A stretch of DNA of 48,246 nt from an uncultured bacterium (GCA_949295325.1 CASFKG010000003.1:1-48246), one strand, 5' to 3'. Shown: positions 37,279-41,811, numbered from the stretch's first letter. Numbers and translations are program-made. The notes: generated by a model not told the origin, from the letters alone.

Positions 37279-37294
37279 TCCGAAATGAGCAGGG

Positions 37295-37322
37295 CTGATG
37301 CCGCCGGCACCAGTCCTTTTTT
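37295..37322 (+). terminator. Terminator after tRNA-Pro
   Basis: ctgatgcc/ggcaccag stem (one mismatch, loop gcc), tcc, then six T. The following 180 bases to the GNAT stop hold no supported gene; only a small hairpin (caaggca/tgccttg near 37397-37417) is seen. Confidence 0.75.
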
Positions 37323-37505
37323 CATGCTAGAGAGGCCGGCAAAGGGGGAGACGCATAACCGCCGGCGCATTTCGGCAAACCTGATATGAATCCGCCAAGG
37401 CATTATCTCTGCCTTGCCGGCTTTGGGAAAATGCCGTTTTCCGATCGCCGCCATTGCACGGCCATCCGGATTTCCAATTCGTTCTATGTGCCATGCCCCT
37501 TAGGG

Positions 37506-37976
37506 CTATCTCGAATCCTGCTTAAGTTTCATGAAGCCGGCCGCCCGCCGGAAGCCGAGCCCGGAGTAAAGTCCGGCCCCGGCTTCGGTGGCTTCGAGAT
37601 ATATCTTCCCCGCTCCCTTTTCCTTGGCCCTTTGTATGAGCCAGCCGACGACGGCCCTGCCTATTCCCTTCCTTCTGGAGGACGGCTCGGTATAGACATT
37701 CATGAGGTAGGCACATTGCCCGGAGGGATTGTCGGGGGAGGGCATTTCCGTCTGGAAGCATATTCCCCCGCAGCCGACAACGTTGCCGTCGAGTAGGGCA
37801 AAGCAGGCGATGTGGCCGCCGTCCGAAAGGGCGTTTTGATAATAGGCAAGGTTTTCTTTTTCCAATAGACCCGTGTCGTAATCCTCGGGGAGCCGGAAAA
37901 CATCGCGGATTACTGTTATCCGCCAATGCAACAGCGTATCCAGATCTTTCAGGGTCGCCCGTCTGATTTCAACCAT
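37506..37976 (-). CDS. GNAT family N-acetyltransferase
   Basis: 156 residues with a single GNAT domain. The acetyl-CoA pyrophosphate loop is RRKGIGRAVVGWLIQRA near residue 100, preceded by the beta4 strand AYLMNVYTEPSS and followed by IYLEATEAGAGLYSGLGF. The N-terminal MVEIRRATLKDLDTLLHWR is typical. The substrate is unknown. It overlaps the adenylation enzyme gene by eight bases and is the last gene of the MarR operon, so it probably acts on the product or substrate of that enzyme. Confidence 0.88.
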   Translation of the reverse strand: MVEIRRATLKDLDTLLHWRITVIRDVFRLPEDYDTGLLEKENLAYYQNALSDGGHIACFALLDGNVVGCGGICFQTEMPSPDNPSGQCAYLMNVYTEPSSRRKGIGRAVVGWLIQRAKEKGAGKIYLEATEAGAGLYSGLGFRRAAGFMKLKQDSR

Positions 37977-39450
37977 TGTACTTGCCTTCCTTGAGAACTA
38001 CCGGAAGCTCTCGAATATCCGGTTTGCCATTCACGTTAAGGGGGATGGTTTTCATTCTCACGAAAAATTCGGGAATCATGAAAGAGGTGAGATTTTCGGA
38101 AAGTTCCTTCCTTATCTCGGATACTTTCATTTCGGAACCCTCCGGAACGACATAGGCCACCATATAGGCCAGAGCGTCCTCGTCCTTGAAGGCCCGGACA
38201 AGCGCTTGCTTGACGCCTTTGCAGCGGTTGAGGCGCGATTCTACTTCGGATACCTCAACGCGTTTCCCGTAAATCATTATCTGGCTATCCTTTCGATGAA
38301 GAAACGCTATATTCCCGTCCGGGAGGATATAACCCATGTCACCGCTGTGGTAGATGCGTCTCGTGCCGGCCTTCTTTTCGAAGGCTTTGTTTTCCTCTTC
38401 GTGATCGCCTATATATCCTAGGGCTACGCCGTCTCCGAAAATGCATATTTCACCGATTTGGCCGTTTGGAACCCTCCGTCCTTGCTTGTCGAGAATCTCG
38501 ATTCCCGTTCCCAGCACGGGGCGGCCGATGGGATAGGTTCCGTCTTTTAGGGGTACTCCCTCGTTGCAGCGGTAATAGGTGGCGCAAACGGTGGTTTCCG
38601 ACGGGCCGTAGGTGTTGTAGACCTCTGCCTGCGGCAAAAGGTTATCCACGTATTTTTCGCGGAGGACATCGCCTCCGCTTATAAGGAGCCTGATGGAAGG
38701 GGGTATTTTCCCCAAACGGTTCATGTCGGCCAGAAGATAGGGGAATCCGCTGATTATCGTGACGCCATGCCGCTCTACGAAGTCCATGAGCGCATTTATG
38801 GTGGATTTCTCTTGGTCTGATGGAATCGCTATCGCCGCGCCGTTAAGAAGGCTGGCGAAAACTTCTTCTACGAAGATATCGAATGAGCAGACGGAGTACT
38901 GCAGCACGATGTCGCCCGGGCCGATATGGAATTCTTTCTCGAAGGCACGCACATAGTGGCAGACGTTTCCGTTGGTTACGCAAACGCCCTTTGGCCGCCC
39001 CGTTGTCCCGGATGTGTAGAGGACATAAGCCGGGCTTGCCGGGTCAATAGGGGTCGCGGCATGGCACCCGGCAATGTTTTTCCCTATGACTTCATCTTCG
39101 TAAAAACGCAGGGCAAGGCCTTGCAGTTTTTCGGCAAAAGGGCGCTCGGTCAAAACAAAATCGACATGGGCTTCCTCCATCATTCCGTGGATGCGGCCCT
39201 TTGGGAAGGCGGGCTCGGCTGGAACGTATCTGGCACCGCATTTAAGAACCGCCAAAATCGAAGCAATCATCTTGACACCGTGAGCCATGACGATGCCGAC
39301 GCTATGGATTTTCTCGGGAAAGGTAGCTGCAATTGCCTCGGCCATATCGTCGAGTTCGCCGAAAGTAACTGTCCGGTTATCCTCGATAACGGCGGGTCTG
39401 CCCCTGTTTTCCCTTACTTTGTTTTCAAAAAGCGAACTGATGTTTTCCAT
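37969..39450 (-). CDS. Stand-alone amino-acid adenylation enzyme (NRPS/DltA-like A domain)
   Basis: 493 residues from the ATG at 39450, which has ggagg six bases upstream on the coding strand. It is a complete ANL-superfamily adenylation domain: YVLYTSGTTGRPKGV near residue 143 (P-loop), SFDIFVEEVFASLLNGA near 189, NTYGPSETTVCATYY near 279, SGDMGYILPDGNIAFLHRKD near 390, and the C-terminal catalytic Lys in NVNGKPDIRELP. Asp191 matches the NRPS residue that binds an amino group, so the substrate is likely an alpha-amino acid. No carrier-protein or condensation domain is attached and no dltC-like gene is nearby. Other possible roles are D-alanine ligase or another amino-acid-activating enzyme. 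Confidence 0.85.
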   Translation of the reverse strand: MENISSLFENKVRENRGRPAVIEDNRTVTFGELDDMAEAIAATFPEKIHSVGIVMAHGVKMIASILAVLKCGARYVPAEPAFPKGRIHGMMEEAHVDFVLTERPFAEKLQGLALRFYEDEVIGKNIAGCHAATPIDPASPAYVLYTSGTTGRPKGVCVTNGNVCHYVRAFEKEFHIGPGDIVLQYSVCSFDIFVEEVFASLLNGAAIAIPSDQEKSTINALMDFVERHGVTIISGFPYLLADMNRLGKIPPSIRLLISGGDVLREKYVDNLLPQAEVYNTYGPSETTVCATYYRCNEGVPLKDGTYPIGRPVLGTGIEILDKQGRRVPNGQIGEICIFGDGVALGYIGDHEEENKAFEKKAGTRRIYHSGDMGYILPDGNIAFLHRKDSQIMIYGKRVEVSEVESRLNRCKGVKQALVRAFKDEDALAYMVAYVVPEGSEMKVSEIRKELSENLTSFMIPEFFVRMKTIPLNVNGKPDIRELPVVLKEGKYNG

Positions 39451-39470
39451 GTTTTGCCTCCTTCGTTTGC

Positions 39471-40148
39471 CTATTTGCATTCGAGCATCCACTTGATGCC
39501 GTCCGCCGTCCTTTCGTTGCATTTTTGGTAATGGCTTCCGCGGTTGAGGACGTAGGCCGTTTCAATCCCCATCGAACGGAAATGTTCCTCGATGGCCTCG
39601 GTATTGGATTGGACTGGTTGGAAAGCCTTGATTTTCGAAGAACTTTCCTTGTCACCTAGCGAGAAATAAATGCATTCCGGGACTCGGACTAGTTTATGTT
39701 CCATGACGTATTCCTTTATGCCGTCGAACCACAGGGAACCGGACATGCTGCCGACGCGGCTGAATGCATCGGTGCGGAATATGGAATAGACCGCGAAGAG
39801 ACCGGCAAGGGAATATCCGGCTAGACCCCGCCAAAGCGGTTTGCCGGGAAGCCGTCCCTCGGCTTCCGGGACGATTCTATCGACAAGGAGTCTCAAATAA
39901 CCGTCGGCGCCGCCGGTACATGGGGAATCGTGTTTGGCGGTGGGCGGAAGGTACCAAGGGGTCATGTCGTGGTTCCACTTCAGCCTACCGATGGTTACCA
40001 AAGTGAAATCCGGGGTCCCGGCCTTTTTGACGGCTTCGTAAAGCTTTTCGCCGGCGAGGGCGAAATTGTTTAGGTAAATGATCGGGGCACCGGGATTAAC
40101 TGCCGCGAATATTTGGATGTTTTTCCCTTCTATCTCGAGAGTTTCCAT
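39471..40148 (-). CDS. Esterase-D/enterochelin-esterase-like alpha/beta hydrolase
   Basis: 225 residues. The nucleophile elbow is LAGYSLAGLFAVYS (Ser113, GxSxG), followed by VGSMSGSLWFDG, as in the family that includes Fes, IroE and other carboxylesterases. Asp166 (SLGDKESSS) and His206 (NRGSHYQKC) are candidates for the rest of the triad. No signal peptide, so it acts in the cytoplasm. It follows MarR with a 53-base overlap and a good aggggaaata ribosome binding region, and precedes the adenylation enzyme by 20 bases. Substrate not known. Confidence 0.83.
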   Translation of the reverse strand: METLEIEGKNIQIFAAVNPGAPIIYLNNFALAGEKLYEAVKKAGTPDFTLVTIGRLKWNHDMTPWYLPPTAKHDSPCTGGADGYLRLLVDRIVPEAEGRLPGKPLWRGLAGYSLAGLFAVYSIFRTDAFSRVGSMSGSLWFDGIKEYVMEHKLVRVPECIYFSLGDKESSSKIKAFQPVQSNTEAIEEHFRSMGIETAYVLNRGSHYQKCNERTADGIKWMLECK

Positions 40149-40599
40149 TATTTCCCCTTTCTTTTGCGGCCGTCAGCTTTCGTTCGGCCTCATCGCAGAA
40201 TTTGTTGAACAGAACGAGGAGTTTTTCAGCTTCCTTGGTTCCCATGGCCTTCAATATGCCGGCTTCGATGGCAATAAGTTCTTCAACGATCGGCTTGGCA
40301 AGTTCCTCGCCGTCTTTTGTCAGGAGCAGTTTCGTTTCCCGCCCGTCGTGGTCGCTTTTGAGTATCCTCAAGTATCCGTGTTCGCATAGTTGCTTGCATA
40401 GGGTATTGACGGTCTGTTTTGGCAAAGCCCATTCCTCGCAGACGACTTTCTGGGTCGATTCTGGATCCTTGTAGGCGACGTATAGGACGGCCAAGACGTT
40501 GTAGCTGATTCCATGGGCCTTCGCCCATTTGTAATAGAGATGGTCGACCCTGTTAGAACGTTCGCCCAGCACTCTCATGAATTCATATGTTTCCATCAC
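40096..40599 (-). CDS. MarR family transcriptional regulator
   Basis: 167 residues. The winged helix-turn-helix spans about residues 48-97: STQKVVCEEWALPKQTVNTL is the recognition helix region and SDHDGRETKLLLTKDG the wing. It is likely a ligand-responsive dimeric repressor of its own four-gene operon. Start GTG 40599 has ggag eight bases upstream; the next codon ATG 40596 is also possible. The last 20 or so residues (GNNGNSRDRREKHPN) overlap the esterase and look unlike MarR tails. One extra A in the A-run before them would give a TAA overlapping the esterase ATG, so this tail may come from a frameshift. Confidence 0.88.
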   Translation of the reverse strand: MMETYEFMRVLGERSNRVDHLYYKWAKAHGISYNVLAVLYVAYKDPESTQKVVCEEWALPKQTVNTLCKQLCEHGYLRILKSDHDGRETKLLLTKDGEELAKPIVEELIAIEAGILKAMGTKEAEKLLVLFNKFCDEAERKLTAAKERGNNGNSRDRREKHPNIRGS

Positions 40600-40616
40600 T
40601 TCGGGGTCTCCAAAGA

Positions 40617-40645
40617 AATATAGTCAAAAATCGGACTAATATCAA
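40617..40645 (-). promoter_or_regulatory. Promoter of the MarR operon with an operator-like inverted repeat
   Basis: On the minus strand TTGATA (40645-40640), spacer 17, TATATT (40622-40617), each one base from consensus. The spacer contains the inverted repeat TAGTC-N8-GACTA (40621-40638), reaching into the -10 box. This is where an autorepressor would block polymerase. The link to the MarR protein is inference. Confidence 0.75.
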
Positions 40646-40721
40646 TTGTAGCGCCTATGCCTAGGACCGTACGGCAAGGGCATCAATAAGGAGTTTCTTT
40701 TATTTCTTTCCGTCTTGGTGT

Positions 40722-40727
40722 TATTAT
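40722..40727 (+). promoter_or_regulatory. -10 box (TATTAT) of tRNA-Arg(CCT)
   Basis: TATTAT nine bases before the mature tRNA end, with TTTATT 17 bases upstream as a weak -35. Confidence 0.4.
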
Positions 40728-40736
40728 TCTTCCGCT

Positions 40737-40887: not shown

Positions 40888-41811
40888 ATGTGCACCGGTG
40901 CTTATCTTAACCAATCCACCCCGGTTTTCGGGCGGAACCTTGACTTGTCGGCCCATTTCGGGGAAGGGGTGATTGCGATCCCGGGCGGTTATGCAATCAA
41001 TAGCAAGAAGGAGGGCATCCATCCCTCTTTTTTCCCGATGCTCGGAATCGGTGCCTTCTACGGCGGCTATCCCCTTTATGCGGATGCGGTGAATTCCAAA
41101 GGCCTGGCCGGGGCTTCTCTATATTTTCCCGGAAATGCCCATTACGGAAAACCGGCGGAAGGTAAGCACAATGTCGCTCCTTACGAACTCATTCCCGAAA
41201 TACTCTCGAGGTTCTCTAACCTTAACGAGGTACGGCAATATGCCCGCGAGGTTAATTTAATTGCCGAACCTTTCGCCGTCGGTTTGCCCCTTACCGATCT
41301 CCACTATATATTCGCCGACAAAACGGGTGCCATCATAATCGAGCCCCGGGAGGAGGGACTAAGACTGTTCGAACCAAAGGTACCATTGCTTACCAACAAT
41401 CCGCCTTACGAATATCAGGAAGATTCGTTGGCTAGGCTTGCCAACCTCGGCCCCGTTTATCCCGAGTCCGGGAAGGGGGTTCCCGATTCGGTCGGCTTCG
41501 GGGCGATGGGTTTACCCGGTGACCAAAGTGCCAGGTCTCGTTATCTAAGGGGTGCATATCTTTTGCAAAACGCCGCAAATGGCGGAGAAAAAGACATAAA
41601 ACGGGATATTTCCAGTGCATTCGATTTCTTTGGGAAGCTGGCTTTTTTCAAAGGAGAAGCCCTGGATAAGGACGGCAAGGAGGAGATGACCATCTATACT
41701 TCCGTCTACTCTTTGGAAGAACCGGCCCTTTATTACCGAAAGGTCGGAGACTACGAGATATACCGGGTTGATTTCGGGATGGTGAAGAAGCCGCTTTTCA
41801 ACCCCTTTTAA
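40888..41811 (+). CDS. Choloylglycine hydrolase family protein, penicillin V acylase-like
   Basis: 307 residues of the Ntn-hydrolase family. After Met removal Cys2 (MCTGAYL) is the nucleophile; Arg16 and Asp19 (VFGRNLDLS), Asn170 (LLTNNPP) and an Arg in SARSRYLRG near 218-221 match the catalytic set. Position 79 is Tyr (SLYFPG) where bile salt hydrolases usually have Asn, as in penicillin V acylases. The segment after Asn170 is shorter than in typical bile salt hydrolases. No signal peptide, so it is cytoplasmic. It hydrolyses an amide bond; bile salts, penicillin V or N-acyl homoserine lactones are candidate substrates. It is a single gene between two tRNA units. Confidence 0.88.
   Translation: MCTGAYLNQSTPVFGRNLDLSAHFGEGVIAIPGGYAINSKKEGIHPSFFPMLGIGAFYGGYPLYADAVNSKGLAGASLYFPGNAHYGKPAEGKHNVAPYELIPEILSRFSNLNEVRQYAREVNLIAEPFAVGLPLTDLHYIFADKTGAIIIEPREEGLRLFEPKVPLLTNNPPYEYQEDSLARLANLGPVYPESGKGVPDSVGFGAMGLPGDQSARSRYLRGAYLLQNAANGGEKDIKRDISSAFDFFGKLAFFKGEALDKDGKEEMTIYTSVYSLEEPALYYRKVGDYEIYRVDFGMVKKPLFNPF

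Follow-up and report, generated by a model that had tools for sequence, protein, structure and literature searches.

Comparative sequence evidence strongly supports the view that a serine hydrolase (EST), an amino-acid adenylation enzyme (ADE), and a GNAT protein form a functional unit whose reach extends well beyond the stretch of DNA in which we first describe it (48,246 nucleotides from an uncultured bacterium, hereafter the window). Our preferred reading, to which we give a probability of about 0.52, is that this triad is a mobile, inducible, carrier-free NRPS-like module that would activate lysine or ornithine and build or remodel an acylated conjugate.

The operon is laid out in Table 1. 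The preliminary description had placed four tightly packed minus-strand genes here, and this arrangement held, with each protein scoring above its Pfam cut-off: 41.4 bits for the MarR-family regulator (cut-off 27), 35.1 bits for EST (cut-off 22), and 60.7 bits for GNAT (cut-off 20.7), while ADE scored 233.5 bits against PF00501 and also matched PF13193. MarR and EST overlap by 53 nt, EST and ADE are separated by a 20-nt gap, and ADE and GNAT overlap by 8 nt. A longer open reading frame would start ADE at 39522, but this start is unlikely, and we preferred the ATG at 39450, which has GGAGG in front of it. It was also correct that the operon has no adjacent carrier, condensation, or export gene. 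The near-consensus promoter reported upstream stood in part. Its match to the consensus holds and its position is compatible with the operon start, but it is the best of three such sites where 2.5 are expected by chance, so the promoter call is not significant on its own. An inverted repeat within the promoter spacer (TAGTC-8-GACTA, spotted by eye) was considered as an operator and set aside as too short for such a claim.

Table 1. Features of the operon and of the tRNA-bounded segment that contains it (window coordinates).
Feature	Position	Strand	Details
GNAT	37506..37976	-	PF00583; canonical acyl-CoA loop
ADE, complete amino-acid adenylation enzyme	37969..39450	-	PF00501 + PF13193, TIGR01733; code DIESIGTVCK
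EST, Fes/IroE-like alpha/beta serine hydrolase	39471..40148	-	PF00756
MarR-family regulator, first gene	40096..40599	-	PF12802; ATG at 40596, GTG directly before at 40599
Sigma-70-like promoter, 5' of MarR	40617..40645	-	TTGATA-17-TATATT; 10/12 match
tRNA-Pro to tRNA-Arg segment containing the operon	37279..40736		tRNAs 86–276 nt apart in six congeners

Scanning GTDB genomes, we obtained 80 loci that encode ADE relatives (51–71 per cent identity), from Blautia, Faecalibacterium, Ructibacterium, Catenisphaera, Absicoccus, Selenomonadales, Prevotella, Atopobiaceae, and others. Together with three loci from a search within the window's own family and the window itself, these make up a set of 84 loci (given below as L numbers) that is spread across Lachnospiraceae, Oscillospiraceae, Erysipelotrichaceae, Selenomonadales, Prevotella, and Coriobacteria. 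Many of the loci are near-identical or related, so the following counts indicate breadth rather than independent trials: a GNAT of a single subfamily lies no more than 108 nt downstream of ADE, overlaps it, or is fused to it in 81/84 loci (including one with a broken ADE and a gap of 276 nt), and in 64/84 EST is either fused or found no more than 3 kb away in the same orientation. Three loci (L061–L063) have ADE without GNAT, and no same-strand EST was found in about one-quarter of the set, where some loci stop at contig ends. Gene order varies, with EST-ADE-GNAT, ADE-GNAT-EST, and ADE-GNAT-HxlR-EST all present. The association is thus one of linkage more than of synteny, which argues that selection, and not recent common descent, maintains it.

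The genes are also joined outright in some relatives. ADE and GNAT form a single protein in six loci (L005–L007, L106, L108, and L112), with a linker that is nearly absent in some, and EST and ADE form one in Absicoccus porci (L058). The predicted structure of a fused ADE-GNAT has good confidence (pLDDT 90.5, pTM 0.77). As a measure of the redundancy, the fifty-nine rows of the tree hold 55 different ADE proteins. The distance-matrix correlations between the families (0.85 for ADE-GNAT, 0.78 for ADE-EST, and 0.65 for GNAT-EST) each exceed all 999 permutations. The preliminary description had proposed a functional set and would have given up the idea had the neighbourhood not been conserved in relatives; for EST, ADE, and GNAT, the conserved neighbourhood, natural fusions, and covarying distances bear it out. 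Its term ‘stand-alone’ for ADE applies locally, but not to those relatives in which ADE is covalently joined to GNAT or EST. Separately, ADE appears to be split into three ORFs beside an intact GNAT at L044 (4336–5916), reflecting either decay or an assembly error in this MAG.

The operon was gained in this lineage. The family search found no match in any of the 12 other genomes of the genus that were sampled (12/12). Six congeners have tRNA-Pro and tRNA-Arg behind polC in the window's order, with 86–276 nt between them; in the window, the segment from one to the other is 3,458 nt, with the operon filling the space. The four genes were gained here as one block. Elsewhere, Faecalibacterium and Blautia luti share a 4.5-kb segment with the triad (L035, 4769–9293) at 99.5 per cent identity, although its surroundings differ, and Faecalibacterium and Blautia wexlerae have the same ADE protein sequence. 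The L035 segment holds EST, ADE, and GNAT plus a radical SAM gene that is apparently frameshifted. With the patterns used, no relative could be confirmed on viral contigs, and a plasmid scan returned just one NRPS (35 per cent identical). PADLOC matched none of the four proteins to anti-phage defence; it did match the DUF1848 neighbour at L046 to a DRT-associated model. Beyond the operon, between tRNA-Arg and tRNA-Ala, the window encodes a choloylglycine-hydrolase-family enzyme (40888–41811, plus strand) that scores 246 bits against a bile-salt-hydrolase cut-off of 350. As these two tRNA genes are only ~530 nt apart in congener L123, this gene also seems to be genus-variable.

ADE belongs with the amino-acid adenylation domains (TIGR01733, 331.7 bits, cut-off 317.4) and retains the A8 and A10 motifs, with D191 at code position 1 and K476 as the A10 Lys. 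Using the GrsA motifs, we assigned the ten classical code positions manually. The resulting code, DIESIGTVCK, is found in 81/83 ADE homologues, although their identity to the window protein has a median of only 57 per cent; the remaining two have DIESVGTVCK and DIEDVGTCCK. PosA, an ornithine-polymer enzyme, binds the alpha-amine through the Asp at code position 1 and the side-chain amine through the Glu at position 3 (PMC10522769). For lysine, the bacitracin code (BacB-Lys) reads DAESIGSV, and position 2 has been proposed to set chain length, with Met giving Orn and Ala giving Lys (PMC3207962). The Ile of ADE at position 2 fits neither rule exactly, so Lys and Orn are both possible. The earlier suggestion that the Asp marks an alpha-amino acid substrate is supported and can be sharpened: with Glu at position 3 and a near-invariant code, the substrate is probably a basic diamino acid, lysine or ornithine, bearing in mind that adenylation codes are imperfect predictors. 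The pocket apparently holds both amines, so the diamino acid is probably still unacylated when it is activated, and GNAT would then act later or on another molecule. One of the loci without GNAT (L062, 4665–8442) has an ADE with the same code and no EST, flanked on one side by an O-acetylhomoserine-sulfhydrylase-like gene and on the other by a cysteine-synthase-like gene (named by eye); the same MAG also has a full triad (L052).

The partners of ADE keep their catalytic residues. In EST, Ser113 (in GYSLAG), His206, and Asp166/Glu168 are conserved in the alignment, in keeping with a PF00756 esterase, and the nearest solved structures are BES, EstB, IroE, Fes-type siderophore esterases, and the TAFC esterase. 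GNAT has the conserved acyl-CoA loop (R101xxG104xG106) and Tyr137 of a GNAT acetyltransferase. Its predicted model (pLDDT 94.3) is closest to 3mgd (Z 20.2), a structure solved with acetyl-CoA, and acetyltransferases for aminoglycosides, polyamines, and tabtoxin also appear among its structural neighbours; no Ebony domain is among the structure matches listed. Given this ordinary acetyl-CoA architecture, aminoacyl transfer by GNAT is a conjecture. The segment GCGGxC...EMPSPDN..G.C.YLMN is invariant or nearly so and is shared only in part by 3mgd. It marks the GNATs as a subfamily, which may have its own acceptor.

The regulator did not keep its place in the set. MarR had been described as a member, but most relatives have no MarR homologue beside the triad, and in several an HxlR or AraC regulator takes its place, so we place MarR outside the core. 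HxlR is divergent and 57–360 nt upstream in seven loci and lies within the operon, between ADE-GNAT and EST, in four, and an AraC gene is directly 5' of ADE in most Prevotella loci. We also considered whether the window's MarR might be the radical SAM mobile pair regulator (TIGR04472) and rejected this, as the model's sole match in the genome is another protein and falls below the cut-off. Sensors of the MarR and HxlR types are often responsive to xenobiotics or redox signals. The triad recurrently neighbours radical SAM mobile pair protein B relatives (20 loci), Sir2 paralogues (21) together with a microbial-PARG macrodomain (18), and nitroreductases, with DUF1848, Fpg, and an HhH-GPD glycosylase in a few loci. 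Regulators and neighbours together suggest an inducible accessory function, perhaps tied to chemical stress. The neighbouring genes vary between lineages too much to give any single pathway.

Two of these arrangements are worth recording. At L075 (399–4256), and in the similar loci L069–L091 from many Lachnospiraceae/Clostridiales, a nitroreductase, Sir2 paralogues, and a PARG macrodomain protein (TIGR02452) precede the triad; the Sir2 paralogues number two or three, are diverged, and lack the usual GIPDFR segment. At L046 (3330–10297), MarR, nitroreductase, DUF1848, EST, ADE, GNAT, radical SAM mobile pair B, Fpg, and HhH-GPD glycosylase genes form a nine-gene run in which several nearly touch or overlap.

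That these genes travel jointly, fuse occasionally, and sit under changing stress-type switches makes it very likely that they make or remodel one small molecule. As we picture it, ADE would adenylate a basic diamino acid whose amino groups are both free, with L-lysine and L-ornithine the most likely candidates. GNAT would dock directly behind the C-terminal subdomain of ADE, at the usual site of a carrier domain, and would perform an acyl transfer that either acts on the activated amino acid or uses it. In this step GNAT could N-acetylate the aminoacyl product with acetyl-CoA, or it could transfer the aminoacyl group to an amine in the manner of Ebony. EST would trim, release, or degrade the resulting ester or amide, and in this lineage a MarR repressor would probably silence the operon in the absence of a small ligand or redox signal. 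We regard one specific, carrier-free route to an amide as doubtful, in which the aminoacyl-AMP passes to CoA or directly to the GNAT site and GNAT then places the lysyl or ornithyl group on an amine; if this route is true, GNAT and CoA together substitute for both the carrier and the condensation domain of an NRPS. Literature searches mostly outside subscription journals, directed at the gene set, aminoacyl-CoA/GNAT coupling, the exact code, and the radical SAM mobile pair, turned up no description. The near-invariant code, the fusions, the recent transfer between the abundant gut genera Blautia and Faecalibacterium, and the occurrence in several phyla point to a shared gut metabolite or detoxification product.

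Detoxification is in fact the main rival to this reading, although we consider it unlikely. The triad would then be a cassette that inactivates an amine- or ester-containing antimicrobial or an electrophile by aminoacylation, acetylation, and hydrolysis, induced through MarR/HxlR sensing. These regulators are of the xenobiotic/redox sensor type, some loci adjoin nitroreductase, Fpg, HhH-GPD glycosylase, or radical SAM mobile pair genes, and rapid horizontal spread is compatible with such a role, as are the aminoglycoside, polyamine, and tabtoxin acetyltransferases among the structural neighbours of GNAT. However, it would be odd for drug resistance to rely on ATP-dependent activation by an enzyme whose amino-acid code is nearly invariant, the lineages differ in their neighbours, and no known resistance family scored above its cut-off.

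It seems quite unlikely that ADE instead serves a conventional NRPS in trans, loading a carrier protein from another locus, with GNAT and EST off-loading or tailoring the product. ADE has kept its A8 and A10 motifs, and the fused model gives good alignments to thiolation-state A domains. Neither ADE nor the adjacent genes contain a PP-binding domain, so they do not form a canonical NRPS module, and the whole genome has two PP-binding matches. One is a 91-aa stand-alone frame of carrier type, which would suit this explanation, but the other lies in an AMP-binding protein that is unrelated and has an MFS-like gene after it. In addition, no conserved small carrier-candidate gene lies beside the triad in the mapped loci, and the fusions join GNAT straight to ADE, so that GNAT occupies the carrier's position.

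A siderophore-like pathway, as for fungal triacetylfusarinine, would combine ornithine-type activation, N-acetylation by GNAT, and IroE/EstB-like ester hydrolysis. We consider this very improbable, even though the code allows ornithine and EstB and the TAFC esterase are among the nearest solved relatives of EST. The sole PF13434 match in the genome (26 bits) is partial (118–226 of 339) in a 300-aa frame and unconvincing as an N-hydroxylase, the operon has no adjoining transporter, and many carriers are anaerobic gut bacteria. The chance that ADE is DltA for teichoic acid D-alanylation, accidentally linked to the other genes, which the preliminary description had said would overturn its proposal, is negligible: DltA is among the nearer families (242.4 bits), but this is far below the NCBIfam equivalog cut-off of 559.85, the genome (95 per cent complete) has no MBOAT protein (DltB, PF03062), so that both defining features fail, and neither the basic-amino-acid code nor the conserved linkage to GNAT and EST fits.

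Several known systems resemble parts of the triad. Epsilon-poly-lysine synthetase and PosA also adenylate Lys or Orn, and their pockets follow the same Asp/Glu logic (PMC10522769), whereas the triad has GNAT and EST in place of a carrier and a membrane-bound terminal domain. EST shares its Pfam family, the GxSxG motif, and the catalytic triad region with the siderophore esterases Fes, IroE, and EstB, but it is ~50 residues shorter, is distant from them (best profile E 5e-9), and lacks siderophore genes in its vicinity. DltA and ADE are both single-domain amino-acid adenylating enzymes that differ in code and partners. For the radical SAM mobile pair system (TIGR04470/TIGR04472), protein B relatives recur near the triad, but protein B is absent from the window's genome and is dispensable for the triad. 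We regard insect Ebony, a beta-alanyl-amine synthetase, as the closest mechanistic precedent; it consists of A-T followed by a GNAT-like condensation domain. Ebony (Izore et al. 2019, cited in PMC8072286 and PMC10531068) and the triad both couple an amino-acid adenylation enzyme to a GNAT-fold partner that replaces the condensation domain, and the A domain and GNAT of the triad are joined in the six fused relatives and adjacent in the window. No T domain lies between them (from the alignment and a Pfam scan of L112), so the triad does not belong to the Ebony type. The Ebony code is for beta-alanine and that of the triad for a predicted basic diamino acid, and the triad further differs in having a linked serine hydrolase and a GNAT that retains its canonical acyl-CoA site.
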